Shown piece by piece: positions 2,167 through 18,505 of a stretch of DNA of 42,630 nucleotides. Source of the stretch: Chloroflexota bacterium (GTDB lineage: Bacteria > Chloroflexota > Dehalococcoidia > Dehalococcoidales > JAFGLR01); the NCBI GenBank assembly GCA_016210585.1, contig JACQTX010000204.1, forward strand, positions 1 to 42,630. The letters are read 5' to 3'. The stretch's first letter is position 1, and every line of letters begins with the position of its first letter. The notes under the pieces were generated by a model, which saw nothing but the letters and a program-made list of their open reading frames with translations, ran no database searches and was not told the DNA's origin. Position numbers and translations under genes: made by a program.

Positions 2167-2224
2167 CATCGCCCCTGGGCTGATAGGAACGTCCCGCGGC
2201 TTGCGTGTGGAAGGAGCAAGCAGA

Positions 2225-2716
2225 ATGACCAGCACTGACGACAAATGGATTGATGACATAGTTGGTGTATTCTTTGACCCCATCATCGTAATGCCCGGCG
2301 GCTGGGGGGACTCCTTACCTGAGTGGATAAAGGGGGAAATCACCCTTGAGCGCCTCATTGAGAATATGAAGGCGCTGAAGGGCGGGAAGCCTGCAGCCAC
2401 AGATGCCGAGGTTGTCGCTTACCTCTACACCGCTTCGCTCACCGCGCCGATGCCTGACCCGTGGCCGCAAATCTACCTTTTCACCATGACACAGCTGATG
2501 CGCCGGTCAAAGAAGGTTGAATTGCCGTCCGATATCGCTGTGGAGTCGCTCACCGAATATCAGAAAGCCAAGCTGCACTACCTTCGCGACTGGCTGTATG
2601 AGGCGCGCACACGGGCAAGAAAGAAGACTGGACACAGCCAGAAGCCAGACGAGGGCAAGCGAATGAAACAGCAACTCGTGCAGATGTCGATGTTTGATTC
2701 AATTGACGGGGCATGA
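2225..2716 (+). CDS. hypothetical protein
   Basis: ORF (listed from 2201) with ATG at 2225 preceded by GGAAGGAG. Confidence 0.5.
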   Translation: MTSTDDKWIDDIVGVFFDPIIVMPGGWGDSLPEWIKGEITLERLIENMKALKGGKPAATDAEVVAYLYTASLTAPMPDPWPQIYLFTMTQLMRRSKKVELPSDIAVESLTEYQKAKLHYLRDWLYEARTRARKKTGHSQKPDEGKRMKQQLVQMSMFDSIDGA

Positions 2717-2783: not shown

Positions 2784-2972
2784 ATGGCCAGGGTATTTGT
2801 CTATGACGGACGGGAGTTTCCCGACCCGGACCCCACCTTGAGCGCGGAAGAGGTAAGGCGGATGATGACCGATTTCTTCCCCGAGCTCGCCAACGCCGAG
2901 GTGCGGGAACACCAGAGGGGCGAAGACACCCTCTACGAGCTGGTCAGACGAGTGGGTACAAAGGGGAGCTAG
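2784..2972 (+). CDS. PRTRC system protein C (prokaryotic ubiquitin-like family)
   Basis: 62 aa MARVFVYDGREFPDPDPTLSAEEVRRMMTDFFPELANAEV...; FxYDGR.FPDPDP and FFPEL.NAEV match the PRTRC-C pattern; AAAGGAGG RBS. Confidence 0.85.
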   Translation: MARVFVYDGREFPDPDPTLSAEEVRRMMTDFFPELANAEVREHQRGEDTLYELVRRVGTKGS

Positions 2973-2995
2973 CCCCTGGTTGAGGGGGTGGACAG

Positions 2996-3265
2996 GTGAA
3001 GATAACCGACATTATCCGTGAAGTCTTGGAAGTTGACTTCTCCGATGAGACGTTAGACCGGACAGGCACTAGGTGTGCCGAGTTCCTGGCATCCCGAGAC
3101 GAAGCGAAGCTGACTCGTCTCTGGCAGAACTGGCTCACGCTCAACGAGCTAATCAGCGGCAGCGCTAGTGTTCCGGAGCTGATCCTGCTCGGCTACTACC
3201 TCGGCACCCTCAAGACCGAGTATGACACTGAGGTCAGGGACTTAGCCAGGCTTCTCGAGAGGTAA
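2996..3265 (+). CDS. hypothetical protein
   Basis: 89 aa ORF inside the co-directional PRTRC cluster. Confidence 0.45.
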   Translation: MKITDIIREVLEVDFSDETLDRTGTRCAEFLASRDEAKLTRLWQNWLTLNELISGSASVPELILLGYYLGTLKTEYDTEVRDLARLLER

Positions 3266-3291
3266 AGACAGCTAAAGGCAGGAGTCGGAAA

Positions 3292-3513
3292 TTGGATACA
3301 GATTCCGTCCTCAGGGCGCTGAGACAGGTGCCTGAGATGCGGCTTCGCCTCATCGAAATGGCCTGGGGGATAACCGGAGAGGACGGCTCTCTCGACCTTC
3401 AGCGGGTCGCATTCTATCGCCTTGAGATGGCAGAGGCTATTGGCGAAGCACAGGCCTATGTGCAGGCCACCAGGGAGGCGGTGCACTGTCTGAGAGAGAT
3501 AATCCACTCCTGA
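3292..3513 (+). CDS. hypothetical protein
   Basis: 73 aa ORF (TTG start) in the co-directional cluster. Confidence 0.4.
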   Translation: MDTDSVLRALRQVPEMRLRLIEMAWGITGEDGSLDLQRVAFYRLEMAEAIGEAQAYVQATREAVHCLREIIHS

Positions 3514-3531
3514 GGCTCGCCCAAGATTTGT

Positions 3532-3750
3532 ATGGAAAGGGAAGCGGAAATGAATATGGACAAACAAATCCTGACTGAGACTGTGACAGTCCTTACTGAC
3601 GCCGTCATGGTGACCCTTGATGGCAAGCAATACAGCATCTCCTGGCGGCACACGCACACCGGCAAAAAAGGCATCATGGTGCTGAGTCCGCAGGGAGAGG
3701 TGAATGTCGTAGACAGGAGTGACACGGGACACTGGCTAATCATCAGGTAG
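3532..3750 (+). CDS. hypothetical protein
   Basis: 72 aa ORF in the co-directional cluster. Confidence 0.4.
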   Translation: MEREAEMNMDKQILTETVTVLTDAVMVTLDGKQYSISWRHTHTGKKGIMVLSPQGEVNVVDRSDTGHWLIIR

Positions 3751-3764
3751 CGGAGGACAGTGCC

Positions 3765-4544
3765 GTGTCTGAAAGGGACGGGCCGCTCCTTGTTCTCGCA
3801 CGCAGGCTGCTCTCGCTCGGCCCACCTTCTTTGAGCACCCTGATAGCACGCGTGGCCGAAGCGGAGGAGTATGAAGACTTCGTGAGCCTGGTGAGGGAGT
3901 TCCTGCCGGAGCGAGAGCCAGATATCCTCCGGGAGGCTACCCCGGCCCGTCAGATAGCTGCCTTCGCCAGCCACTTTCGCGACCGCTACTTTCCCCTGCA
4001 GGACTACCTGGAAATGGGCGATGCAGAAAGCTATGGCGACCTCACCCGGGACATACCGGTCATTCCCCTGGGTCTCTCTGACCAGGATTATCATGCTATC
4101 GTCTCGGACTGGCGGAGTGGCTTTCAGCTTATGACCTATCTTGTCGAGAGTCCCTGTGCCGGGGAGGCACGCCTCCCCCTGGCTGAGGCCTGCCAGGAGT
4201 ACATTCCGGTAAGCCTTATGGAACAAGTTCCCGAGCATGGTTTCAGCCCGGGCGAACTTCGCTATCTGCTGGGCAATACAGAACACAGGGCACTGGCCCA
4301 CTGGGCTGACATTGTTTGGCACGACACAGGCAATTTCTTCCTCGACACTGACGATGCGAACCTGTGGAGCGACGAGCTTCCGAACTGGGACGACGGAACA
4401 GTGGCCAACCTCACCAGAGAGTGGCAGCAAGCGGAAGCTATGCAGGAGGAAATCGACAACCTGGTGGCATGGCTTGAAGAAGACCCACCGGCACATTTTC
4501 GCGAGCTTCTGGAGTTCACACATGGCAGGCAAGAAAATGAATGA
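3765..4544 (+). CDS. probable PRTRC system protein F
   Basis: 259 aa; position between PRTRC-C and PRTRC-B; C-terminal WHDTGNFFLD...W..AEAMQEEIDNLVAWLEEDP pattern; family call from context and recollection. Confidence 0.55.
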   Translation: MSERDGPLLVLARRLLSLGPPSLSTLIARVAEAEEYEDFVSLVREFLPEREPDILREATPARQIAAFASHFRDRYFPLQDYLEMGDAESYGDLTRDIPVIPLGLSDQDYHAIVSDWRSGFQLMTYLVESPCAGEARLPLAEACQEYIPVSLMEQVPEHGFSPGELRYLLGNTEHRALAHWADIVWHDTGNFFLDTDDANLWSDELPNWDDGTVANLTREWQQAEAMQEEIDNLVAWLEEDPPAHFRELLEFTHGRQENE

Positions 4545-5250
4545 AGCTATCGCTAAGAGTAAGATTGACACACTGACACACGATCCGGCGGGCTACAAGT
4601 GGGCGTTGCCGGAATCCCTGGAGGTGCCCGCCGACGAGCTCAAGGCACGCCTGGACTTCTACCAGGATGCGGTCATGCTCTACCTGGTGGAGGCGGGCGT
4701 TATTGCCACCCGGATGGTGTCGGCACGCGATGTCGCACTGGCTTTGCTGAGGGAAGTGCCACTCAGGTCGGGGCTTTTGCCCGAAAACACGCTCTGGTGG
4801 GGCCAGGGCAGGGAAGGGGTAGAGATCGCCCTGTGGCGGCCGCCGAAGATATGGCCTGTTGCCCTGCAGACGGAGCCTTTCCGGCCTCCGCGGCGGCTCA
4901 AGTTGCCCATGCCCGGCCTCATCTTCCTCTGCTCGCCAGGGAGACCGCCGCGTGTTTATGCCGCTAAGAAGAGGCCAGCCAGACTTGAAGATACCGTCTA
5001 CCACGCTCCCCTGTTCAACGTGTTCAGCGACGGCCGGACCTGTCCTGGCACGCATAAGTATCCCGGTGCCACCGGGGAAATACCGGAGTCCTTCTTTGCC
5101 AGCTTCTTCACCCCTGCCGCCGACTATATGGGTCGGTCGCAGAAATACCCCAATGACCTGCTCAAGCTGTGGGCAGAGCTGGACGGCCATAATAGATACC
5201 CGCTGGGAGACCTGGTGCCCTTCGGCAAGGTAGAGGACATCATGAAATGA
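4522..5250 (+). CDS. PRTRC system protein B (E2-like, Prok-E2_D type)
   Basis: Frame of listed ORF 4237-5250; plausible ATG at 4522 or 4537, overlapping the previous gene; VYHAPLFNVFSDGRTCPGTHKYP...IPESFFASFFTP motif typical of PRTRC-B. Confidence 0.85.
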   Translation: MAGKKMNEAIAKSKIDTLTHDPAGYKWALPESLEVPADELKARLDFYQDAVMLYLVEAGVIATRMVSARDVALALLREVPLRSGLLPENTLWWGQGREGVEIALWRPPKIWPVALQTEPFRPPRRLKLPMPGLIFLCSPGRPPRVYAAKKRPARLEDTVYHAPLFNVFSDGRTCPGTHKYPGATGEIPESFFASFFTPAADYMGRSQKYPNDLLKLWAELDGHNRYPLGDLVPFGKVEDIMK

Positions 5251-5792
5251 GACCGGTCGGTTACCTCTTGAATAGAGGGACAAACCTGGACGGCGAGCCG
5301 GGTCTTTTCTATGACTACATCCTGGCCGGGAACGGGCTTTTTGTCCGGGCCAGGAGCAGTCTTCTGGCAGCCACGGTCAGCATTGCGTGGGCGCAGGTAA
5401 GAGGACTTGCCCTCCTCGCGGAGAAGATGGTGCTTCCCAAAGGCAAGATACCACGTCACCTGTATGACCTCGCCCTCTCTGTCCTATTCGCCGATAGCTG
5501 CCACGAGCGCTACCTGGCCATTACGTGGGAAGGCGAATACCGCCTGAGAATGCCGCCGCAGGAGGGCAGCTCCGGTGGCGTGCAATACGAAGTGATGCCC
5601 AACACCGTGGTGGACATCCACAGCCATGCCGGTATGAGCGCCTTCTTCAGCAGCACCGATAACAGAGACGAGCGGGGACTGCGCCTCTATATGGTGGTAG
5701 GCAGACTGGATACCCTGGTGCCGGAAAGAGAAATGCGAGTGGGCGTCTACGGCTATTTCTCTCCTGTGGAATTTGATGACGTCTTCGCCTAG
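5247..5792 (+). CDS. PRTRC system protein A (JAB/JAMM metalloprotease-like)
   Basis: HSHAGMSAFFSSTD fits HxH-x7-S-x2-D exactly; ATGA overlap with PRTRC-B. Confidence 0.85.
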   Translation: MRPVGYLLNRGTNLDGEPGLFYDYILAGNGLFVRARSSLLAATVSIAWAQVRGLALLAEKMVLPKGKIPRHLYDLALSVLFADSCHERYLAITWEGEYRLRMPPQEGSSGGVQYEVMPNTVVDIHSHAGMSAFFSSTDNRDERGLRLYMVVGRLDTLVPEREMRVGVYGYFSPVEFDDVFA

Positions 5793-5803
5793 TTAAGGGT
5801 GCG

Positions 5804-6595
5804 ATGCACAGATTGGACAACAGCTTCACACAGCGCCACTTCACGGTGACGGTAGTCGGGTGCGGCGGCACGGGCGGCTTTGTGGCCGAGGGCCTCTGTC
5901 GCCTGCTGCCCCGACATGCCGGCCTGGCCCTCATAGACCACGACCGGGTGGAGGAAGAAAACCTCACTCGCCAGAACTTCACCCGAGAAGACCTGGGGCG
6001 GTTCAAGAGTGAGGCTTTGGCCAGGAGACTGGCCCGGAAACACGGACGCACGGTGGCCTACGCGGCTCTCCCTGTTGGCATGGTTGAGCTGGCACTACCG
6101 GGTATAGTTATCGGTGGCGTGGACAACGGCCTGGCCCGCCGGGACATAGCCGCCAGGCTGAAGGGCTTTTCGACTATTGGGCTGATTAATCAGGGCTATG
6201 TTTCCAGGCCGAACTGGTGGGTTGATGCCGGCAACGGGGAAAACTACGGGCAGATACTCATCGGCAATGCCGACAGGGCCATTTTTGAGAAGGATGTTTG
6301 CTACGCCATGCCCTTGCCCACGCTGCAGAGGCCGGAGCTGCTGGCACAGGCACCATCCCAGGAGCCCAGCTGTGTCCAAATCGCTGAGCAAGGGCCGACC
6401 ATGAACCTGGCCATGGCGGCCGTGGTGCTGGAGGTGGTGAGGAGGCTTATTGAGGGCACCTGCCCCTGGATGCAACTATACCTTGACCTGGCCGAAGGAA
6501 CGCTTCATTCCGTCCCGGCCACGCCTGGTGCAGTTACGAGAATACTGGGCATTAAGAAGCAAAAAATAATTCAGAAAGGAGGAGGCACAAGATGA
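5804..6595 (+). CDS. PRTRC system ThiF/E1-like adenylyltransferase
   Basis: VVGCGGTGGFVAEGL nucleotide-binding loop, LIDHDRVEEENLTRQNF, PSC...PTMNLAMA near the expected Cys region. Confidence 0.88.
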   Translation: MHRLDNSFTQRHFTVTVVGCGGTGGFVAEGLCRLLPRHAGLALIDHDRVEEENLTRQNFTREDLGRFKSEALARRLARKHGRTVAYAALPVGMVELALPGIVIGGVDNGLARRDIAARLKGFSTIGLINQGYVSRPNWWVDAGNGENYGQILIGNADRAIFEKDVCYAMPLPTLQRPELLAQAPSQEPSCVQIAEQGPTMNLAMAAVVLEVVRRLIEGTCPWMQLYLDLAEGTLHSVPATPGAVTRILGIKKQKIIQKGGGTR

Positions 6596-6888
6596 GCGAG
6601 GAGACCAAGATTGTCATTGCCCTCAAAGGCAACACAGCATCGGTAGGCGTCCAGACACTCGGCTGTGACCCCGTCTTTGCCCGTGTCGAGGGCGACCTGC
6701 CGGCAGTCCTGCAAAACATTCCCGGCCTAGTAGAGAATGCCCGCCGGCGGTGGGAAGCGAACCAGCGCTACCCGAAATGCGAGACAGTGCTGTCACCGCC
6801 AACACCAGCGCCAGCACCGTCCTCAGGACAGTCGGGGCATTCATCCAGGCGGGAGACGGCGACTTCCAGCCTGCCCAGAATGTTCTGA
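6592..6888 (+). CDS. hypothetical protein
   Basis: 98 aa ORF with ATGA overlap to the ThiF gene; its tail may be frameshifted relative to ORF 6750-6941. Confidence 0.45.
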   Translation: MSEETKIVIALKGNTASVGVQTLGCDPVFARVEGDLPAVLQNIPGLVENARRRWEANQRYPKCETVLSPPTPAPAPSSGQSGHSSRRETATSSLPRMF

Positions 6889-6956: not shown

Positions 6957-8066
6957 ATGCAAATACGAGTAGATAGGCTCAGGGAGGCCCTGGAGCTCCT
7001 TCACCCGGTCGTCCCCAGGAAAACTTCTCTCGATGTGCTGGGCAATGTCCTGTTAAGGAACGGCCGGGCGGCAGCCACCGACCTCGAGGTGGCCGTTGCC
7101 CTGGAGCTTCCCGAAGTCGAATGCGAATGCCTTCTCCCGCAGGAACTGGTGGCCAAACTGCTCAAATACGTGCCGGGCAGTGAGGTGCTCACCATTGAGC
7201 AGAAGGGTAAGAGCCTGGGGTTTTCTTGGGACGGCGGCCAGGCTACCTATGAGGTACCCAAGCCTGCCGATTACCCGCCGCTGCTGGAGGTTAAGACAGG
7301 AGAAGCGCAGGCTGTGGATGGGGAGACACTGGTGCCGGCGCTTTCAGCGATGCTGGCGTACTGTGCCACCGCGAAGGACCGGCTTGTGCTGACCGGGGTG
7401 CACCTTACCCTGGGTGAAACCACAGAGGTAGCTGCCGGAGACGGCTTCAGATTGGCCTTCCAGACCTTGCCTATAGCCGTGTCCCCGGTGGATGGTGTCG
7501 AGGGGGCGGTCATTCCTGCTAGTGCAGTCACTATCCTGGGACACCTGTGGCGAAAGGTCCCGGGGGCACCATTGGATGGTTTCCCGGCCCGGCTGCTCAA
7601 GCGCCGGCTGGAGCTTACCCTCAACAAGACCATGCTCCAGGTACGCTTCGGGCGAGTAACCCTCACCACCAGGCTCATCGAGGGCGCCTCACCCAATTTC
7701 AAGCAGTTTATCCAGCAGGAAGCTGCGCTCAAGGTGCGTATGCTAGCCCCGGACTTCGAGCGGGCGGTGCGCCGTGTCCAGGACATGGCCAGAGAGAACT
7801 CAGGAATTGTCCGCCTTGCCTGGTCCGGCGCCGCCCTGTCCGTCTCCGGCCGGAGCAGTGAGAAGGGTCAGGTTGAAGTCAGCTTCCCGGTGACGAGCGA
7901 AGGTGGCGACGGTAGGGTAGCCCTGAACGTGAGCTACCTGCTGGACTACCTCCGTGGCCGAGAGGGCCTGGTAACCATGTCTGTCATCAGCGAGAAAGCC
8001 CCTGTCCTCTTCCGGCACGGCACATCCCCAGTGGTGGTGATGATGCCTATCTTTGTCCAGTGGTAG
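6957..8066 (+). CDS. dnaN: DNA polymerase III subunit beta (sliding clamp)
   Basis: ~369 aa with DnaN pattern: VLGNVLL...ATDLEVAV, LTGVHL...AADGFRLA, RLIEGASPNFKQFI; AAAGGAGGTG RBS before ATG 6957. Confidence 0.88.
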   Translation: MQIRVDRLREALELLHPVVPRKTSLDVLGNVLLRNGRAAATDLEVAVALELPEVECECLLPQELVAKLLKYVPGSEVLTIEQKGKSLGFSWDGGQATYEVPKPADYPPLLEVKTGEAQAVDGETLVPALSAMLAYCATAKDRLVLTGVHLTLGETTEVAAGDGFRLAFQTLPIAVSPVDGVEGAVIPASAVTILGHLWRKVPGAPLDGFPARLLKRRLELTLNKTMLQVRFGRVTLTTRLIEGASPNFKQFIQQEAALKVRMLAPDFERAVRRVQDMARENSGIVRLAWSGAALSVSGRSSEKGQVEVSFPVTSEGGDGRVALNVSYLLDYLRGREGLVTMSVISEKAPVLFRHGTSPVVVMMPIFVQW

Positions 8067-8069
8067 CCA

Positions 8070-8104
8070 GGTGGGGGCCGGGTGGTTCAGACCCGGCCCC
8101 CACC
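8070..8104. terminator. GC-rich perfect hairpin after dnaN
   Basis: GGTGGGGGCCGGGT-ggttcag-ACCCGGCCCCCACC, 14-bp perfect stem starting 4 nt after the dnaN stop; no U-tract. Confidence 0.6.
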
Positions 8105-8176
8105 GCGCCTGGGGAAGAGACGCCATTGCAGCCAGCATGTTTTTCTCCCAGTATGGGTTTGATAGGAGAAGTAGTA

Positions 8177-8494
8177 ATGGACGCACTATTGGTAATCAAT
8201 GCTGTTTTCCCCACCGGACAGATTGTGGCTACGAGGGGAGTTTACGATCTGGCGTGCCAGAACCCGGACTTTGCCAGGTTCATCCAGAAGTCCCTCAACC
8301 GCCACGTCAAAGGCGACTGGGGAGACGTGGATGACGAGGATAAGCAGACCAACGACCAGGCGCTCAAACAAGGGAATCGGTTGCTATCAGCCTACAACGA
8401 CGACCGCTTTCCAAGAAATGGCAATGCGACCATCTGGATAATCACCGAGGCTGACCGGAGCGCGACAACTATCCTCTTCCCTGACGAATATTGA
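8177..8494 (+). CDS. conserved-looking hypothetical protein
   Basis: ATG 8177 in the frame of ORF 8060-8494; MDALLVINAVFPTGQIVATRGVYDL...NDDRFP...IWIITEADRSATTILFPDEY. Confidence 0.6.
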   Translation: MDALLVINAVFPTGQIVATRGVYDLACQNPDFARFIQKSLNRHVKGDWGDVDDEDKQTNDQALKQGNRLLSAYNDDRFPRNGNATIWIITEADRSATTILFPDEY

Positions 8495-9128: not shown

Positions 9129-9902
9129 ATGGCTAGAAGAAGTATCTGGAAAGGAGCTATCGCCTTTGGCATGGTGGCTATCCCTGCCAAGCTCTACTCG
9201 GCAACCGAGGACACGGACATCAGCCTGCACCAGTATCATAAGGACTGCGGCCACCGTATCTCCATGCCCAGGTATTGCGGCACCTGCCAGAAGATGCTGG
9301 CCACTGCCGACATTACCAAAGGCTACGAGGTGGGCGACAGCTATGTGCCTTTGTCTGAATCTGACTTCCAGAGCCTGCCCCTCAAATCGGTGAAGACGAT
9401 CGAGGTGGTGGAGTTTGTGGATGATCGCCAGATAGACCTCAGGTGCTACGACAAGCCCTACTTCCTGGCCTCGGATGAAGGGGGCTACAAAGCCTACCGG
9501 CTCTTTGTCATGGCGATGGCAGAGGCGAAACTGGCGGCAGTCGCCAAGCTCTGCTATCGCGAAAGGGAACGGCTGTCCGTTGTCCGCCCCTACCAGGGGG
9601 TAATGCTGCTGCAGACACTACGCTATGCCGATGAGCTGAAGGAATGCTTCGACCTCAAGCCACCGGAGTATCCCATCAGCAGCAAGGAGCTGGAGCTGGC
9701 CATATCCCTGGTCAAAGCCATGGCCGCCCCCCAGTTTGAGCTGGCCAGGTACCACGATGAATACCGCCAGGCGCTGGAGAAGCTGATTGAGGCCAAGATT
9801 GCCGGTGAAGCCTTGCCAGTTGCTCAGGAAGCCCAGTTCCCGGTATCCGATGTGGCGGATGCCTTACTTGCCAGCTTGAAGCTGGTAGAAGCGAAGCGGT
9901 GA
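9129..9902 (+). CDS. ku: non-homologous end joining protein Ku
   Basis: MARRSIWKGAIAFGMVAIPAKLYSATEDTDISLHQYHKDCGHRI... is the canonical bacterial Ku N-terminus; GGAGAGGAGG RBS. Confidence 0.93.
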   Translation: MARRSIWKGAIAFGMVAIPAKLYSATEDTDISLHQYHKDCGHRISMPRYCGTCQKMLATADITKGYEVGDSYVPLSESDFQSLPLKSVKTIEVVEFVDDRQIDLRCYDKPYFLASDEGGYKAYRLFVMAMAEAKLAAVAKLCYRERERLSVVRPYQGVMLLQTLRYADELKECFDLKPPEYPISSKELELAISLVKAMAAPQFELARYHDEYRQALEKLIEAKIAGEALPVAQEAQFPVSDVADALLASLKLVEAKR

Positions 9903-9991
9903 TAGCCGCTCAATGCGCTGGGCCTGAGAGCGATTTCAGGTTCAGGCATAAGGTGGCTATCCGTGACTGAATTCCAGTCGAATGGAAGGTA

Positions 9992-10891
9992 ATGAAAACG
10001 ATTAAACCAATGCTGGCCCAGACAGCCAGTGAACCGTTTGCCCACAAGGATTGGCTCTTTGAACTGAAGCTGGACGGGGTAAGGTGCGTCGCCTACCTGG
10101 ACAGGAAGACCCGACTGCAGGCGAGAAGTGGGCAGGATATTGCGGCCCAATTCCCCGAATTGCAGGAACTACACCGGCAGGCGGTGCAGCCCTGCATCCT
10201 GGATGGAGAGATTACTTGTGCCACTTTCAACCAAGTTCAGCACCGTATTCACAGGACTAAAGCCCTGGACATCAGGGTGGCCGCAAAGCTCTACCCGGCC
10301 CGCTTCTTTGCCTTTGACATCCTGAATATCGGCGGCAGAAGCACGATGCCCCTTGCTCAGACAGCCCGCAAGGAAACCCTGGCCACGGTGATGAAGGAAA
10401 GCGAGTATGGACTGACCCTGCCCTGGCGGGATGGTGAAGGGGTAGCCTTGTTTCGCGAAGTCCAAAGTCGCCGTCAGGAAGGTATTATGGCGAAGCTGAA
10501 GTCAGCGCCCTACGTAGAAGGAAAGCGGGTGAACTGGTGGCTCAAAATCAAGAACTTCCACGAAGGCACTTTCTATGTCTGCGGGCTGACCGAGGGCGAG
10601 AATGACCGCAAGGCCACCTTTGGCTCACTCATACTGGGAGAACTGAGAGACGGCAAATGGGTCTATGCCGGCAACGTCGGCACTGGCTTTGACCAGCAAC
10701 AACTCAGAGAGCTGTCCGCATACTTCGATGCTCTGAGGGGAGACTGTCCCTTCGAGCACGTGGATGTGGGACGGCCAGTCAAGCTGTGGACCAGGCCGAT
10801 TGTTCAGTGCGAAGTCCGGTTCCTTGAGCGGGGTGGCGACGGCAAGCTGCGCTTCCCCAGCTTCAGACAGCTAATGAGTGAGTTGCGGTAA
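9992..10891 (+). CDS. ligD: ATP-dependent DNA ligase (LigD ligase domain only)
   Basis: MKTIKPMLAQTA...WLFELKLDGVRC (nucleotidylation motif), ILDGEI, EGIMAKL, LKIKN. Confidence 0.88.
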   Translation: MKTIKPMLAQTASEPFAHKDWLFELKLDGVRCVAYLDRKTRLQARSGQDIAAQFPELQELHRQAVQPCILDGEITCATFNQVQHRIHRTKALDIRVAAKLYPARFFAFDILNIGGRSTMPLAQTARKETLATVMKESEYGLTLPWRDGEGVALFREVQSRRQEGIMAKLKSAPYVEGKRVNWWLKIKNFHEGTFYVCGLTEGENDRKATFGSLILGELRDGKWVYAGNVGTGFDQQQLRELSAYFDALRGDCPFEHVDVGRPVKLWTRPIVQCEVRFLERGGDGKLRFPSFRQLMSELR

Positions 10892-11852: not shown

Positions 11853-13892
11853 TCAGCGCCACATCTGGCGGATTCTATCGGCGATTCGGCCGGGAGGCAC
11901 ATTATCTGCTACCTCGTCTGCATTGCGGTGGCCATCTCCGGCTACCACCGCGTCCATTGTCGCTGTCACGTCCGGCGTGAAGAACCGGCAGCACTGGGCG
12001 TAGCTGTGGTTATCCGTGAGTCCCCGTGACTTGTGGTAGTAGCGGAGCGGCCAGAGGACATACAGGAAGTCACGGGCACGCGTCATGGCCACGTAAGTCA
12101 ACCGAAGCTCTTCTTCAACCTGGCCATTGTCGCCGGTGGCCATGTCAGACGGGAGGCACCCATCGGCGGCATGGATGAGATAGACAACGTCCCATTCCAA
12201 TCCTTTGGCCGAATGGATGGTTGACAGCACCAGCCAGTCTTCATCGCGGCTCGGGGGCCCGGCCAGGTCTCCGGTGGAAACCGGCGGGTCGAGAATCAGC
12301 TCGGCCAGAAACTGCCGGCGTGAGTCGTAGCGCCGGGCAAGCTCGCCGAGGTGCTCGATGTCGTTCGCCCGCGGTCCGGGATCCTCGTAATTCCGTTCCA
12401 GCAACGGCAGGTAGAACTCGCCTATCCTTTCGACCTGTGCCGAGGGTCTATCATCTGCCATGCTCTGCAGGTCGCCCATGAGCGAGGCCAGCCCCGCCAT
12501 CTCCTCTTGTGCTGCCGGCGGTGCTTTGAACGTGGCCAGCGATGACTGTGTGCCATGATTGGCCAGGACATGCTGGAATGCCGCCCCCGCTGTTACCGGT
12601 CCCACCCCTCGTAACAGCTGCAGGACGCGAAACCAGGCCATTTCATCCCGGGGGTTTTCGCTAATCCGCAGGAAACTGATAAGGTCTTTCACATGGGCGG
12701 CTTCCAGGAAGCGGAGGCCGCCATACTTGTGAAAGGGGATATTGTGGCGCACCAGGGCCAGCTCCAGAGACTGGGAGTGTGAGGCAGCCCGGAAAAGCAC
12801 GGCCTGTTTGCGCAGTGGTATGCCCTGCTCGTAGTGCTCGAGCACCTGACGGATGACCGTTTCGTCTTGACGGGTCTCATCCGGACAGGTAATGAGATGG
12901 GGCCGTTGGCCGCCGTCGCGCTTCGACCACAGCTCCTTTGAGTAGCGCTCGCGGGCCTGGCCGATGACGCGGTTGGTGGTCTCCAGTATAGGCCGGAGCG
13001 AGCGGTAGTTCTGTTCCAGCGTCACGACCCTCGTGCCGGGAAATTGGATGGGGAAGTCGAGCATGTTGCGTATTGTTGCGGAACGAAAGCTGTAGATACT
13101 CTGGGCATCATCGCCGACCACGGTGATGCTATTGTTGAACCGGCGCATGCCCAGCAGAATCCCCGACTGTATCGGGTTGGTATCCTGGTATTCATCCACG
13201 AGGATATGGTCGAAACGGCTGCCGATACTGCGGGCGAGGGCTTCTTCCTGGAGCAGGTAATACCAGTAGAGGAGGAGGTCGTCGTAGTCCAGGATATTTT
13301 GCTGTTGTTTGCGCTGGACGTATTCCCGGAAAAGCTGGTTGAGTTCGTCCTGCCACATGAGGCACCAGGGGAAGTCACGGCGGAGGATAGCCTCAAGCTC
13401 TTCGTTGCCATTGACGCGGCGGGAGTAGATGTCCAGGCAGGTGCTCTTGCGCGGGAAGCGCTTGTCTTTGGTCGAAAAGGAGAGATTGTTGCGGACGACA
13501 TTGAGGCAGTCCTCAGCGTCGGTGCGGTCAAGGATGGTGAAATCGGGCGAAAGGCCGGCGGATTGGGCGTATATCCGGAGAAGCCGGTTGGCCGTGGCAT
13601 GGAAGGTGCCGCCCCAGACATGCCGGGCCAGGGAATCGTCTGAAGCAGCCGGAGATGTTGCCCGCTTCAGCATCTCTTCGGCAGCACGCCGGGTGAACGT
13701 GATCAGCAGGATACGTTCCGGCGGGACTCCCTGGGCAATGAGGTAGGCGACACGGTAAGCGAGTGTGCGTGTTTTCCCAGTGCCGGCCCCGGCTACAATG
13801 AGTAACGGCCCGTTGCCATAGGTGACCGCTTCCCGCTGTCGGGGGTTCAAGTCGGCAAGTAGCTTCTGTATGTCTTTGCCCATCTTCACCAC
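11853..13892 (-). CDS. UvrD/Rep-family ATP-dependent DNA helicase
   Basis: LNPRQREAV, Walker A GAGTGKT, Walker B ILVDEYQDTN, GDDAQSIYSFRSA, TIHSAKGLEWDVVYL. Confidence 0.93.
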   Translation of the reverse strand: MVKMGKDIQKLLADLNPRQREAVTYGNGPLLIVAGAGTGKTRTLAYRVAYLIAQGVPPERILLITFTRRAAEEMLKRATSPAASDDSLARHVWGGTFHATANRLLRIYAQSAGLSPDFTILDRTDAEDCLNVVRNNLSFSTKDKRFPRKSTCLDIYSRRVNGNEELEAILRRDFPWCLMWQDELNQLFREYVQRKQQQNILDYDDLLLYWYYLLQEEALARSIGSRFDHILVDEYQDTNPIQSGILLGMRRFNNSITVVGDDAQSIYSFRSATIRNMLDFPIQFPGTRVVTLEQNYRSLRPILETTNRVIGQARERYSKELWSKRDGGQRPHLITCPDETRQDETVIRQVLEHYEQGIPLRKQAVLFRAASHSQSLELALVRHNIPFHKYGGLRFLEAAHVKDLISFLRISENPRDEMAWFRVLQLLRGVGPVTAGAAFQHVLANHGTQSSLATFKAPPAAQEEMAGLASLMGDLQSMADDRPSAQVERIGEFYLPLLERNYEDPGPRANDIEHLGELARRYDSRRQFLAELILDPPVSTGDLAGPPSRDEDWLVLSTIHSAKGLEWDVVYLIHAADGCLPSDMATGDNGQVEEELRLTYVAMTRARDFLYVLWPLRYYHKSRGLTDNHSYAQCCRFFTPDVTATMDAVVAGDGHRNADEVADNVPPGRIADRIRQMWR

Positions 13893-13939
13893 CAGTCCGC
13901 CTGTTATACCGCATTGTAGCAGTTTGCGGCGCGGACTGG

Positions 13940-16900
13940 CTAGCAGAAATTCCTGGCCCTCGGTGCGGCAGAGGCGGCGGTGGCGTGCTCTTGCAAGGGT
14001 ATGACCTGTTTGGCTATGATGTTGCTGATACCCTCCTTTTTCTGCAGCACCCCTTCGATAACAAGCAACGGCTCCGTGCGGACGATGTAACGGTATTTTT
14101 GGTAGACATCCGGTCTGAGGACAATGTTAAGCAGACCGGTCTCATCTTCGATGGTGAGGAAGACATGACCTTTGGCCGTCGCCGGGGCCTGGCGGCAGAC
14201 TACGTAGCCCGCTGTCTTAACTCTGGTGCCAGATGATAACGCCATGACTCTGGCGCCGGTCAGGATACCATCTCCGGAGATGGTGCTTCTGATTAGCTGC
14301 ATGGGGTGAAGGCGAGCGGAAAGCCCCTGGACACTATACTCGGCAGCCAGCTTTTCCCAATCGGTCATGCCCGGCAGGGGCACCTGATAGGTGTGGTATT
14401 CCAGGGCCAGGGTATCGCGCCCGGCCTGCTCCAGCTCCCCCAACTCCCAGAGCAACTGGCGGCGGGGGACATTGAAGCTATCCATCGCCCCGGCCAGGAT
14501 AAGGTTTTCTATTTCTGCCCGGCCCAGCCGGGTCCGGCGGTAGAAATCTTCTAAGGAAAGGAAGGAGGCTGCTCCTCTTGCCTGCTCCATGTCGTCTATC
14601 GCCGTCTCACCCATTTCCTTAACATAGCAAAAGCCGAGGCGGAGCTTACTCCTCTCTACCGTGCACCTGCCCTGGCTGTGGTTGATGTCCACAGGCAGCA
14701 CTGGCACGCCGTGACGTTTGGCATCCCCCACGATAACCTCCGGCGTGTAGAAGCCCATCGGCTGGTTGTTCAACAATGCCGCATAGAACTCGGCGGGATA
14801 GTAATACTTCAGCCAGGCCGACTCGTAGGCCAGCAGGGCAAAGCTGGCAGCATGGCTCTTGCAGAAGCCGTACTCGGCAAAGCCTTTGAGGGTATCGAAT
14901 ACCCTGGTCGCCACGTCCTCACCTATATTGTTTCGCTGCGCCCCTTCCAGGAAGCGCTGCCGCATGTCTTCTATAGCCTGCCGGGAGCGCTTGTGGCTCA
15001 TTGCCCGCCTTAAAGAGTCCGCTTCACCGGGACTGAAACCGGCCACGGCGATGGCGGCTTGCAAGACCTGCTCCTGGAACAGAATCACACCCAGCGTTTC
15101 CTCCAGGATGGGCTTCAAGATTCTATGCGGGTAGGTGACCTTTTCCTTGCCCTGCCGTCGGTTAATATAGGGATGTACCATGTTGCCCTGTAGCGGGCCG
15201 GGACGGATGATAGCTACTTCTACGGTCAGGTCCTCTATGGAGCGTGGCCTGGTGCGGGGTAAAGTCTGTATCTGGGCACGGCTTTCCACCTGGAAGACGC
15301 CCAGCGTGTCGCCGCGGCAAATCATGTCATAGACCTGGCCGTCATCAAGCGGAATTCGGGACAGGTCGAAACCGGCATTATGCCCCTGCTTAACCAGGTT
15401 GACCGCCTCGTCAATGAGCGAGAGCATACGGAGGCCGAGGATGTCCACCTTGACCAGCCCGGCCTTTTCTACGCCGTCCTTGTCCCATTGGCAGACTACC
15501 CGTCCCGGCATGCTCGCTCGCTCCAGGGGCACAATATCGCAAAGGGGACAGGAGGCGATTATCATGCCGCCGACATGAATGGAGAGATGACGGGGAAAGT
15601 TAGCTATCTCCTTGCAGAAAGAGAGGAAATATTGCCAGGGTAAGGTGGTGACGTAAGGGCGAAACTTTTCCAGGCTGCCCAGGTCGTCACCTATCTCCCG
15701 GGCGCTGTAAGCCCCGACAGTCTTGGCCATCTGGTCGAGGATGGCGGCCGGCATGCCCAGTACCTTGCCCACTTCCCGTATAGCGTTACGGGCCTGGAAG
15801 GTGATATAGGTGCAGACCATGGCCGTATGCTCTTCACCATATTTTTGATAGACATACTGGATGAGCTTTTCACGGTGGTTGGTGGAAACGTCAATATCTA
15901 TATCCGGGATGGCCGACATCTCCTCGTTGATGAACCGGCCGACAAATAGCTTATTCCGGATAGGGTCAACCCTGGTTATGCCCAGGACGTAGGCAATAAT
16001 GGAGTTTGCCGCCGAGCCTCTACCCTGTGCCGGGATACCGTTCCTGCGGGCATAGTCCATGATGTCCCAGACAATCAGGAAATAGCCGGAGAGGCCGAGC
16101 TTGCGGATGAGGTCAAGCTCATAGCTCACCTGGCTTCTTACCTTTTCGGAGAGGTCGCCATAGCGCTCTTTCGCCTTCTGCCAGCACAGCCCGGCCAGAT
16201 AGCTATCGGCGGTCTCACCAGCGGACAGCGGGAACTCAGGGAAACGGTAGGCGGCAAAGTTGAGGTCAACGTTACACTCACTGGCAATACGCAGGGTGTT
16301 TTCCAGTGCCTGCGGGTGTTCTTTGAATAGAGAAGCCATTTCCGCAGCAGGCTTGAGGTAAAACTCGGCGTTGGGGCGGCGCACATGCCCCGATTTATCG
16401 AGAGTAGTGCGGTTTTTGATGCAGACCAGGATGTCATGCAGGCGGTGCCTGTCTGGGGTAGTGTAGTCCACATTATTGGTGGCAACGTATCTTACGCCCA
16501 TGGTGTCCGCTAAATCTACCAGTTGCCGGCAGAGCGGGGTGTCCCCGGGACACAGGTTGTTCTGCAATTCAATGAAGAAGTTGTCGCCGAAGATGCTCAG
16601 GTATTTTCTGACCGCCATCTGTGCCTGCTCCTTCTTGCTGGCAAAAAGCAGGCTGGGGATTTCCCCTTTCCGGCAGCCAGACAGGCAGATGAGGCCGTCC
16701 GCATGCTTGCCCAGTATTGCCAGGTCGGTGGCCGGGCTGCCTTTGCTGTGGTCTAGCTGTGCCTTTGTTATGATGCGGCACAGGTTGGCATAGCCCTGGT
16801 TGTTTCTCGCCAGCAGGGTGATGTGATGTCCGCCGCTGAGGGTAAGCTCAACTCCAATGACTGGCTTAACCCCCAGTTTGCGGGCTGACTTATGGAAGTC

Positions 16901-17044
16901 AATGGCACCATATAAGCCATTGTGGTCGGTCAGCGCCAGGGCCGGCATATCAAGCTCTTTAGCCCGGGCGACCAGCTCCTCCGGCGGCGAGGCCCCGTCC
17001 AGCAGGGAGAAATGAGAGTGGCAATGCAGCTCGATGTAGTCCAT
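13940..17044 (-). CDS. dnaE2: error-prone DNA polymerase III alpha (DnaE2/ImuC type)
   Basis: N-terminal PHP domain HCHSHFSLLDGAS, catalytic PDIDIDV, FCKSHAASFALLAY, short C-terminus after the OB domain ending ARNFC; adjacent to imuB. Confidence 0.88.
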   Translation of the reverse strand: MDYIELHCHSHFSLLDGASPPEELVARAKELDMPALALTDHNGLYGAIDFHKSARKLGVKPVIGVELTLSGGHHITLLARNNQGYANLCRIITKAQLDHSKGSPATDLAILGKHADGLICLSGCRKGEIPSLLFASKKEQAQMAVRKYLSIFGDNFFIELQNNLCPGDTPLCRQLVDLADTMGVRYVATNNVDYTTPDRHRLHDILVCIKNRTTLDKSGHVRRPNAEFYLKPAAEMASLFKEHPQALENTLRIASECNVDLNFAAYRFPEFPLSAGETADSYLAGLCWQKAKERYGDLSEKVRSQVSYELDLIRKLGLSGYFLIVWDIMDYARRNGIPAQGRGSAANSIIAYVLGITRVDPIRNKLFVGRFINEEMSAIPDIDIDVSTNHREKLIQYVYQKYGEEHTAMVCTYITFQARNAIREVGKVLGMPAAILDQMAKTVGAYSAREIGDDLGSLEKFRPYVTTLPWQYFLSFCKEIANFPRHLSIHVGGMIIASCPLCDIVPLERASMPGRVVCQWDKDGVEKAGLVKVDILGLRMLSLIDEAVNLVKQGHNAGFDLSRIPLDDGQVYDMICRGDTLGVFQVESRAQIQTLPRTRPRSIEDLTVEVAIIRPGPLQGNMVHPYINRRQGKEKVTYPHRILKPILEETLGVILFQEQVLQAAIAVAGFSPGEADSLRRAMSHKRSRQAIEDMRQRFLEGAQRNNIGEDVATRVFDTLKGFAEYGFCKSHAASFALLAYESAWLKYYYPAEFYAALLNNQPMGFYTPEVIVGDAKRHGVPVLPVDINHSQGRCTVERSKLRLGFCYVKEMGETAIDDMEQARGAASFLSLEDFYRRTRLGRAEIENLILAGAMDSFNVPRRQLLWELGELEQAGRDTLALEYHTYQVPLPGMTDWEKLAAEYSVQGLSARLHPMQLIRSTISGDGILTGARVMALSSGTRVKTAGYVVCRQAPATAKGHVFLTIEDETGLLNIVLRPDVYQKYRYIVRTEPLLVIEGVLQKKEGISNIIAKQVIPLQEHATAASAAPRARNFC

Positions 17045-17048
17045 GGGC

Positions 17049-17303
17049 TCAGTCCCGCAGCTTGCTCAGATACCACCTGCCGGCTACCAGGTCATGGTAG
17101 ATGTCATAGACCAGCCCTTGCGCTGTCTCAACTCTGAAATAGTCGCGCCGTATTTCTTCAGCCCACCAGCCATCGGCTATCCGCCAGTGCTCATAGATAC
17201 TGAGCACCCGGTGCATACGGCCATTCCGCTTGAGGTTGAGCGGCTTACCGTCACTATCTGTTTTGACCTCTATTTCTGGCAGACTGCCTGTTTGTCCGGT
17301 CAT
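17049..17303 (-). CDS. DUF6504-like small protein of the imuB-dnaE2 locus
   Basis: 84 aa, W/Y/R-rich (HRVLSIYEHWRIADGWW...YFRVETAQGLVYDIYHD...WYL); ATGA overlap with imuB. Confidence 0.65.
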   Translation of the reverse strand: MTGQTGSLPEIEVKTDSDGKPLNLKRNGRMHRVLSIYEHWRIADGWWAEEIRRDYFRVETAQGLVYDIYHDLVAGRWYLSKLRD

Positions 17304-18505
17304 TCTACCGCCTCCCGCTCACTGGCATCTTTCAGGGCAAAACGGCGCTCCGGGATGAAGGCCGTCGGGTCCTTTATGACTATCTGTTTGAGTGGCTGAT
17401 AGCCAAATCTTAGCTTTAGCTCGCCGGTCAGCCGGTCAAGCTCACGCCTGACTCTTTCGTGAGGCCACAAAGTAGGATGCTTGCCAGGCTCCTTCGTGAG
17501 CCAGAGGGAGATGGTCATACCTGATACTGGTGCCGGAAATTCTCGGCTCTCCAGCCAGGTTTCCAGGCGTCTCACGATGACATCGCTGGCAATAGTAGCC
17601 TCTTTCAAGGGCAGCCTTTGCGCTTCTTGTGTCCCGGACGCAAAGCTCAATCTGACCGTGATTTCACGGCAGAGCTTGCCATGCGCTTTCACGTCAGCAA
17701 GAAGCTTTCCCAGCACGGCGTCACCTGCCCGCAATATATCCAGGTAGCTGTCTATCGGCGGGTCAAACTCGATGGTATCCTCTACAATCTGAGGCTTCTT
17801 CCGGGGAATGAGCGGAGTAGGGTCAATCCCGTGCGACAGGTTGTGAAGGGTCATGCCTTCGCTGCCGAACTGGGTGACGAGCATTTCCCGTGGGAACCGG
17901 GAAAGCTGGCTGATAAAACGGATGCCCAGGAAACGCAGCCGCTCTTTGGCCTCATCGGAGCAAGGCAATAAATCTATCGAGAAAGAAGCGATGAAGTCCC
18001 GCTCTCTTCCCGGTGCCAGGATAACTGAAGCTTCCGGCGTGGCTACCAGGGCTGCCGCATGAGCGAAGAACTTGCCGCCGCTTATGCCGGCAGTGGCATC
18101 CAATCGGGTATCAGCACGTATTCTGGATACCATGTCACGGGTCAGTACCGCTTCATTTTGGACTCCGGCGACATCAAGACAGGCACAGCCGGGCTTCTCG
18201 GCATCTATTATGGGGCTGAAGTTTTCCAGGACGCTGAGCACTTCCTCATAAGCCTGCTCATACCGCTTCCCGTCCGCTGGCAAGAACTTCGCTTCGGGAC
18301 AAAGAGCATAAGCCTGGCGCAGTGACATGACACGGGCAACACCGGAGGCAGCCGCCTCTGGTGAAGCATCAAGGACAGGCTTGTCCTCGAAGGGCAACCC
18401 GCCAATTACAAGTGGCTGCCCTCGCCAGTCCGGGTTATGGCAAAGCTCCACCTGGACAGGCAAGTTATTGATTACCACACAGGCAATTCTCATCATTCTC
18501 TTCAC
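17300..18505 (-). CDS. imuB: ImuB-like Y-family polymerase homologue, predicted catalytically inactive
   Basis: Y-family architecture (LRQAYALCPEA, LSVLENFSPII, LRFLGIRFISQLSRFPREML), but the two acidic motifs read VVINNL and KPGCACLD instead of DMDxF and SIDEAYLD. Confidence 0.85.
   Translation of the reverse strand: MKRMMRIACVVINNLPVQVELCHNPDWRGQPLVIGGLPFEDKPVLDASPEAAASGVARVMSLRQAYALCPEAKFLPADGKRYEQAYEEVLSVLENFSPIIDAEKPGCACLDVAGVQNEAVLTRDMVSRIRADTRLDATAGISGGKFFAHAAALVATPEASVILAPGRERDFIASFSIDLLPCSDEAKERLRFLGIRFISQLSRFPREMLVTQFGSEGMTLHNLSHGIDPTPLIPRKKPQIVEDTIEFDPPIDSYLDILRAGDAVLGKLLADVKAHGKLCREITVRLSFASGTQEAQRLPLKEATIASDVIVRRLETWLESREFPAPVSGMTISLWLTKEPGKHPTLWPHERVRRELDRLTGELKLRFGYQPLKQIVIKDPTAFIPERRFALKDASEREAVE

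Follow-up and report, generated by a model that had tools for sequence, protein, structure and literature searches.

What does a bacterial ubiquitin-like conjugation cassette of the PRTRC type act upon? The question is raised by a Chloroflexota bacterium of the Dehalococcoidia (GenBank assembly GCA_016210585.1), in which contig JACQTX010000204.1 carries such a cassette at positions 2784-6595. The window analysed here is that entire contig (C166, 42,630 bases), part of a 2.79 Mb metagenome-assembled genome (MAG) of 254 contigs that is 91% complete. The PRTRC families have been on record for about two decades. The original prediction, made from the letters of the window, regarded their function as unexplained, and we likewise found no functional study of PRTRC in the literature searched, nor any link to a clamp or to replication in the titles and abstracts of papers containing the term ‘PRTRC’ (subscription papers and preprints lay outside both searches); the priority of the clamp link described below is not established. 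The gene content and motifs of the locus suggest, with a probability of roughly 0.6, that it encodes a complete and reversible ubiquitin-like conjugation pathway of a mobile element, acting at that element’s replication clamp.

Composition of the cassette

The cassette was originally taken to end at 6595, but it continues into an E-like gene and a sliding-clamp gene. Both genes, along with the clamp-binding tails discussed below, had been missed, and they provide the best functional clue at the locus. The components are:

2784..2972, + strand: PRTRC_C, ubiquitin-like modifier, 62 aa (TIGR03738, Prok_Ub)
3292..3513, + strand: X, conserved small helical protein between C and F (profile hidden Markov model (HMM) matches, ~30 loci)
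3765..4544, + strand: F-position all-helical protein, 259 aa (homology to cyanobacterial F-position proteins; AlphaFold2 (AF2) model)
4522..5250, + strand: PRTRC_B, E2-like (TIGR03737, Prok-E2_D; Cys174, His178)
5247..5792, + strand: PRTRC_A, JAMM protease (TIGR03735, Prok-JAB; HxHx7SxxD)
5804..6595, + strand: ThiF, E1-like adenylating protein (TIGR03736, ThiF)
6592..6888, + strand: E-like protein with a beta-beta-beta-alpha domain, a disordered linker and a clamp-binding-type tail, here the degenerate SLPRMF (AF2 model; tails of the family)
6957..8066, + strand: DnaN-like sliding clamp (PF02768, PF02767, phrog_947, DnaN structures)

Families were assigned with NCBIfam/TIGR models, judged by their cut-offs, and Pfam models, judged by their gathering (GA) scores, profiles were compared with hhalign, and the E-like protein and F were modelled by AF2. 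The cassette-bearing relatives come mainly from Dehalococcoidia and other Chloroflexota MAGs. All five open reading frames (ORFs) earlier read as C, F, B, A and ThiF exist at the coordinates given. Those of C, B, A and ThiF match their families, and the HMM check proposed for the genes starting at 2784, 4522 and 5247 placed them in PRTRC_C, PRTRC_B and PRTRC_A respectively. C passes the TIGR03738 cut-off of 45.95 (53 bits, E 2.7e-14) and scores above GA for Prok_Ub. The other three fall under the cut-offs of their TIGR models and above GA in Pfam: B matches TIGR03737 at E 2.4e-16 and Prok-E2_D at 63 bits (GA 25), A matches TIGR03735 at E 3.7e-15 together with Prok-JAB, and ThiF matches TIGR03736 at E 1.2e-26 together with Pfam ThiF.

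The catalytic motifs of C, ThiF, B and A are intact and kept in relatives. In B, the conserved Cys174 is followed by His178 (NVFSDGRTC-PGT-H), and the Cys is invariant in eight aligned relatives. A carries a complete JAMM motif, HxHx7SxxD, which starts at residue 125 (HSHAGMSAFFSSTD) and is kept in nearly all relatives; its N-terminal domain, which in type 6d operons bears a conserved Arg and a conserved Trp, keeps an Arg and has no invariant Trp as read from the sequences of close relatives. ThiF has GCGGTG at residue 19, at similar positions across relatives, and a conserved candidate catalytic Cys190 that precedes the start of a conserved Q...N helix. ThiF resembles the MccB and UBA5 structures, and searches of PDB sequences returned no relative of A or of B. 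It is highly probable that these genes form an active ubiquitin-like conjugation pathway.

The identification of F, originally offered as probable, is supported by homology and by structure prediction. No Pfam or NCBIfam model matches the protein, TIGR03742 included. A profile of its relatives retrieves the F-position proteins of the PRTRC operons of Chroococcidiopsis and Trichormus (E 2.3e-13 and 2.2e-10), and its AF2 model is all-helical (mean predicted local distance difference test, pLDDT, 92.6; predicted template modelling score, pTM, 0.84), with nothing better than E 1 in a fold search against the PDB. At two other loci the F gene is unusual: it is seemingly split by an insertion of ~2.4 kb in L071 (5833-9348), and in L023 (1855-3093) its product is longer at the C-terminus and ends in EDQARLL, which may also be a clamp-binding tail. 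In the window, F and B overlap by 23 nucleotides (4522-4544), the predicted translational coupling of B and A is borne out by an ATGA overlap at 5247-5250, and ThiF shares a further ATGA with the E-like gene at 6592-6595.

C looks like a precursor, one that A would cut after Gly61. Its terminus reads RRVGTKG-S, a single residue beyond GTKG, so that the predicted mature C-terminus is Gly61. The GTKG is nearly invariant among relatives of C (variants are GTRG, GVKG, GAKG, GKKG and GPKG), and the tail that follows it ranges from none to ~80 residues, up to a whole domain. Variable tails after a conserved GTKG form the pattern of ubiquitin precursors, with A as the obvious protease.

Three small ORFs between C and F had been put forward as possible lineage-specific accessories. 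This does not hold for X, which is widely conserved: among Chloroflexota-type loci for which the stretch from C to F is available, essentially all have X there, and in L024, L037, L075 and L076 it shares one frame with C with no stop between them. Cyanobacterial C proteins, from plasmids of Nostocales, Chroococcidiopsis, Leptolyngbya and Gloeothece, have an extension of ~75 residues past GTKG or its equivalent, and X matched ten cyanobacterial extension sequences, two of them free-standing proteins of Pseudanabaena, with hhalign E 7.9e-6 (probability 84, 66 columns). Because the family is kept between C and F and matches the cyanobacterial C extension, X is by its sequence a core component of the system, in some lineages apparently produced within the C precursor. 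For the other two ORFs (2996-3265 and 3532-3750) no homologues were found, and we do not count them as parts.

The E-like protein and clamp-type tails

The E-like protein probably binds a sliding clamp. Its AF2 model consists of a beta-beta-beta-alpha domain (core pLDDT >90) followed by a low-confidence tail rich in Pro, Ala and Ser; no PDB entry matched it with confidence in a fold search, and the Pfam and TIGR models for PRTRC_E do not match the gene. In most loci the family follows ThiF, and in L037, L075 and L076 it lies just upstream of C. We call it E-like because in those three loci the gene occupies the classical place of PRTRC_E before C.

The bacterial clamp-binding motif is QL[S/D]LF or QxxLF, often at the C-terminus (PMC12309361, PMC4549789). 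The E proteins of cyanobacterial plasmids end in QLSLF, QLKLF, QISLF, QLTLF or QLNLF, those of Pseudanabaena in QMTLL and QTLQL, and that of Leptolyngbya in QRSLF plus four residues. PolB of the same cyanobacterial plasmids terminates in QLSLF. Among Chloroflexota, E ends in QLSLFG, in QTLRLF or QALKLF, or in QPKFF, QPSFF, QPPMF and similar sequences. Clamp-type tails also occur in a second conserved neighbour, just upstream of C:

2201..2716, + strand: g2201, conserved neighbour with a clamp-type tail (LVQMSMF; tails of relatives)

The g2201 family is unrelated to E, and its relatives end in QPSFF, QPTFF, QPKMF and RPTLF. Pairs of g2201 and E tails from the same locus are QPSFF/QPKFF, QPTFF/QPKFF, RPTLF/RPTLL and QPKMF/PRMFE. 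We kept the QxxLF-type pattern strict and did not widen it to take in the E-like protein of the window. The clamp-type pattern written to cover these tails is found in 20 of 31 distinct Chloroflexota E tails, as against 18 of 1,880 other ORF ends, and since 15 of these 18 background matches are cyanobacterial E, g2201 or PolB, their removal leaves 3 of 1,865; the contrast is only descriptive, because the pattern was composed after the tails had been seen.

Replication genes at this locus and elsewhere

The clamp gene itself starts at an ATG (6957) preceded by a strong Shine-Dalgarno sequence. Domains 2 and 3 of its product (PF02768 and PF02767) score above GA and domain 1 below, and the protein matches phrog_947 at E 3e-43 and DnaN structures at E 1e-16. 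The pocket landmarks DGFRL and MPIFVQW are kept, and comparison of the pocket among clamps gave no clear correlation with the class of E tail. The genome has two further DnaN genes, of which the one on contig C63 is presumably chromosomal. The other lies on contig C227 (locus L094, 6,011 bases), which holds another, incomplete copy of the element in the order A (part), ThiF, E, clamp, 8060-like gene, Ku, 8499-like gene and ligase. At the amino acid level, A, ThiF, E, the clamp, Ku and the ligase are 82-91% identical between the two copies, and the 8060-like and 8499-like genes ~62-65%. The ratio of nonsynonymous to synonymous substitution rates (dN/dS) is 0.15-0.23 for the six genes compared, which indicates purifying selection; for E, whose paralogue on C227 ends in PPRMF, it is 0.21.

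The window is not alone in having a clamp gene within the locus of the cassette: ~18 other distinct loci of the Chloroflexota-type clade have one too. When mapped on the B tree the clamp label changes nine times, with short contigs included under ‘no clamp’, indicating that the clamp was repeatedly gained or lost. Plasmids of Pseudoalteromonas spongiae and P. donghaensis have the order clamp-ParB-E-C-F-B-ThiF. Plasmids of Nostocales, among them pCC7120beta of Anabaena PCC 7120, a laboratory strain, have a primase-polymerase before the cassette and dnaN, dnaX and a family-B polymerase after it; pCC7120beta also has holA and a delta-prime-like ATPase after the cassette, and in Leptolyngbya holA comes directly after ThiF. 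Out of 72,556 plasmid records, 406 match the Trichormus clamp and 56 the Trichormus B (PRTRC_B), and 23 of these 56 are among the best 60 of the 406 clamp-matching records, an overlap that serves as description and not as a test because many of the records are near-copies.

Downstream of the clamp in the window, one further gene belongs to the element’s conserved surroundings:

8060..8494, + strand: conserved neighbour (overlap with the clamp gene)

In both copies the clamp is also followed by Ku and an ATP-dependent ligase (9129-10891 in the window), a pair resembling non-homologous end joining on a mobile element. Neither gene was found at the eight relative loci tested, and we omitted them from the mechanism for this reason. 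On the minus strand, positions 11853-18505 hold genes for a UvrD-like helicase, a DnaE-type Pol III alpha subunit and a Y-family (ImuB-like) polymerase, possibly a mutasome-like cluster beside the element; no clamp-binding tail was seen among them. From ~19 to 42 kb the window carries metabolic genes, namely TRAP and TctA transporters, MTTB and an aldehyde ferredoxin oxidoreductase, and these suggest that the element meets chromosomal DNA near 19 kb.

Known systems, alternatives and proposed role

Iyer et al. (2006) described an operon type, 6d, with the same gene set, including a ‘largely alpha-helical’ protein and an E2-like protein in which the Cys is followed by His (PMC1779556). The cassette of the window shares with PRTRC (TIGR03734-03742) and 6d operons a ubiquitin-like protein with a C-terminal Gly, a helical protein, an E2, a JAMM protein and ThiF, in the same order and likewise on mobile elements. 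It differs from them in that ParB and D are missing, the E-like gene follows ThiF instead of preceding C, the conserved gene X and the downstream sliding-clamp gene are additional, and A, B and ThiF score under the TIGR cut-offs. PRTRC_parB has no match in the window and only a 24-bit match elsewhere in the genome. PRTRC_D (TIGR03739), which we take to be a StbA/ParM-like relative, matched nothing in the whole genome at its 91% completeness, and the same model matched three proteobacterial PRTRC plasmids as a positive control. The earlier view that neither D nor E could be recognised thus stands for D; E has a candidate counterpart by its place in the operon and its architecture at 6592-6888, too divergent for the models and lying after ThiF. 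As ParB and D were tested for and not found, we file the locus as a variant PRTRC-type (6d) cassette and not as a complete PRTRC system. The operon of pCC7120beta (PCC7120DELTA_RS00275 to RS00300) is alike in its E-C(-X)-F-B-A-ThiF genes, its nearby plasmid-borne clamp and an E with a clamp-binding motif. It differs in that X is fused to C, E lies upstream of C with the canonical QLSLF, and the clamp is ~8 kb downstream with the clamp loader and PolB.

The Bil operon and the Cap2/Cap3 genes of type II CBASS (cyclic oligonucleotide-based anti-phage signalling systems) follow the same bacterial E1-E2-JAB logic, and the cassette could by analogy serve anti-phage defence, with phage proteins being tagged and E steering the machinery via the clamp to replisomes that are foreign or of phage origin. 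Defence is the role of other bacterial operons with E1, E2 and JAB genes (PMC10097602), the PADLOC models for E1-E2 and BilD weakly match the E1 domain, and genes of defence systems are found close to some cassettes (Shedu in L054, Hachiman in L081). However, Bil and Cap2/Cap3 differ in operon content and families, and have an established defence role and no clamp link. In PADLOC, none of C, F, B, A, E and X matches a model above noise. The genes conserved around the cassette serve replication and partition (ParB, dnaN, dnaX, holA, PolB, primase) and not defence, and contigs of phages or prophages also carry cassettes, next to genes for terminase, portal and replication proteins. We consider a defence role unlikely.

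Several observations weigh against a role at the clamp. The E-like protein of the window ends in SLPRMF, which has no leading Gln and is missed by the strict pattern, and in the window’s g2201 the QMSMF is followed by six further residues. Proteobacterial PRTRC_E has no canonical motif, even in Pseudoalteromonas with its adjacent clamp gene. Chloroflexota and cyanobacterial E match weakly (hhalign probability 9), and the idea of a single universal E family was dropped when the profile comparison with proteobacterial PRTRC_E failed. No clamp gene was found in the flanks examined of many loci (L036, L040-L042 and L067-L073), and the counts given above are uncorrected for relatedness. Finally, the cassettes of phages or prophages (L036 and L042; also L040 and L041) have a PRTRC-type core with ParB directly upstream of C. 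L036 carries terminase and portal genes and L042 terminase and replication initiator genes; ParB touches or adjoins C, and no E or clamp was found at either locus. When viral contigs were searched, a single B sequence gave no match and the B alignment gave four. These loci can consistently be read as a constant set of conjugation genes (C, X, F, B, A, ThiF) whose targeting partner would be exchangeable (ParB, or E with or without a clamp).

The same loci suggest a second alternative, in which C would be conjugated to ParB-type proteins to control plasmid or phage segregation and the clamp link would be secondary. ParB lies directly before C or overlaps it in the phage-type L036 and L042, it precedes E-C in proteobacteria, and PRTRC_D is present on such proteobacterial plasmids. 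The window cassette, however, has no ParB, and none was noted in the clamp-bearing Chloroflexota loci. PRTRC_D, where present, is tens of kilobases away, and it is absent from pCC7120beta and from this genome. A partition role seems improbable, somewhat more so than defence. Least probable is that the E tail is a C-terminal signal of another kind, such as a tag for a protease or for degradation, with the clamp linked only because large elements often carry replication genes: the tails are indeed short and hydrophobic, that of the window is degenerate and linkage alone can come from a shared plasmid lifestyle, but several lineages agree exactly on QL[S/D]LF, as do the plasmid PolB tails, and the tail recurs in two unrelated families, E and g2201, of one locus.

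In the reading we prefer, a conjugation pathway acting at the clamp, C would be made as a precursor and trimmed by A after Gly61. Judging from motifs and homology, ThiF would adenylate Gly61, hold C on Cys190 and hand it to Cys174 of B. The E tail would dock on a clamp, either the element’s own (6957-8066) or that of the host, and so bring the conjugation machinery to the replisome, as its motif, its recurrence and its neighbourhood suggest. The clamp, or proteins bound to it, would then receive C, which A would later remove, with F and X acting as structural or specificity subunits. The odds that C is conjugated to the clamp or to a protein bound to it fall a little short of even. The likely outcome would be control of the element’s replication through the exchange of polymerases or other partners on the clamp, formally like PCNA ubiquitination or SUMOylation.

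Still more tentatively, the locus may represent a mobile-element system dedicated to the sliding clamp, in which E recruits the machinery and reversible tagging controls polymerase exchange and replication, as a bacterial counterpart of PCNA ubiquitination and SUMOylation. The logic proposed to be shared with the eukaryotic case is the addition of a ubiquitin-like tag to a sliding clamp, and the comparison is an analogy only: unlike in the PCNA case, the clamp here is of the DnaN type, the machinery is bacterial and the substrate is a proposal. The canonical E tails and the plasmid clamp genes found in three phyla turn the ‘function unknown’ of PRTRC into a direct hypothesis and, if the substrates are clamp-bound, this would be a bacterial case of ubiquitin-like tagging at the replication clamp.

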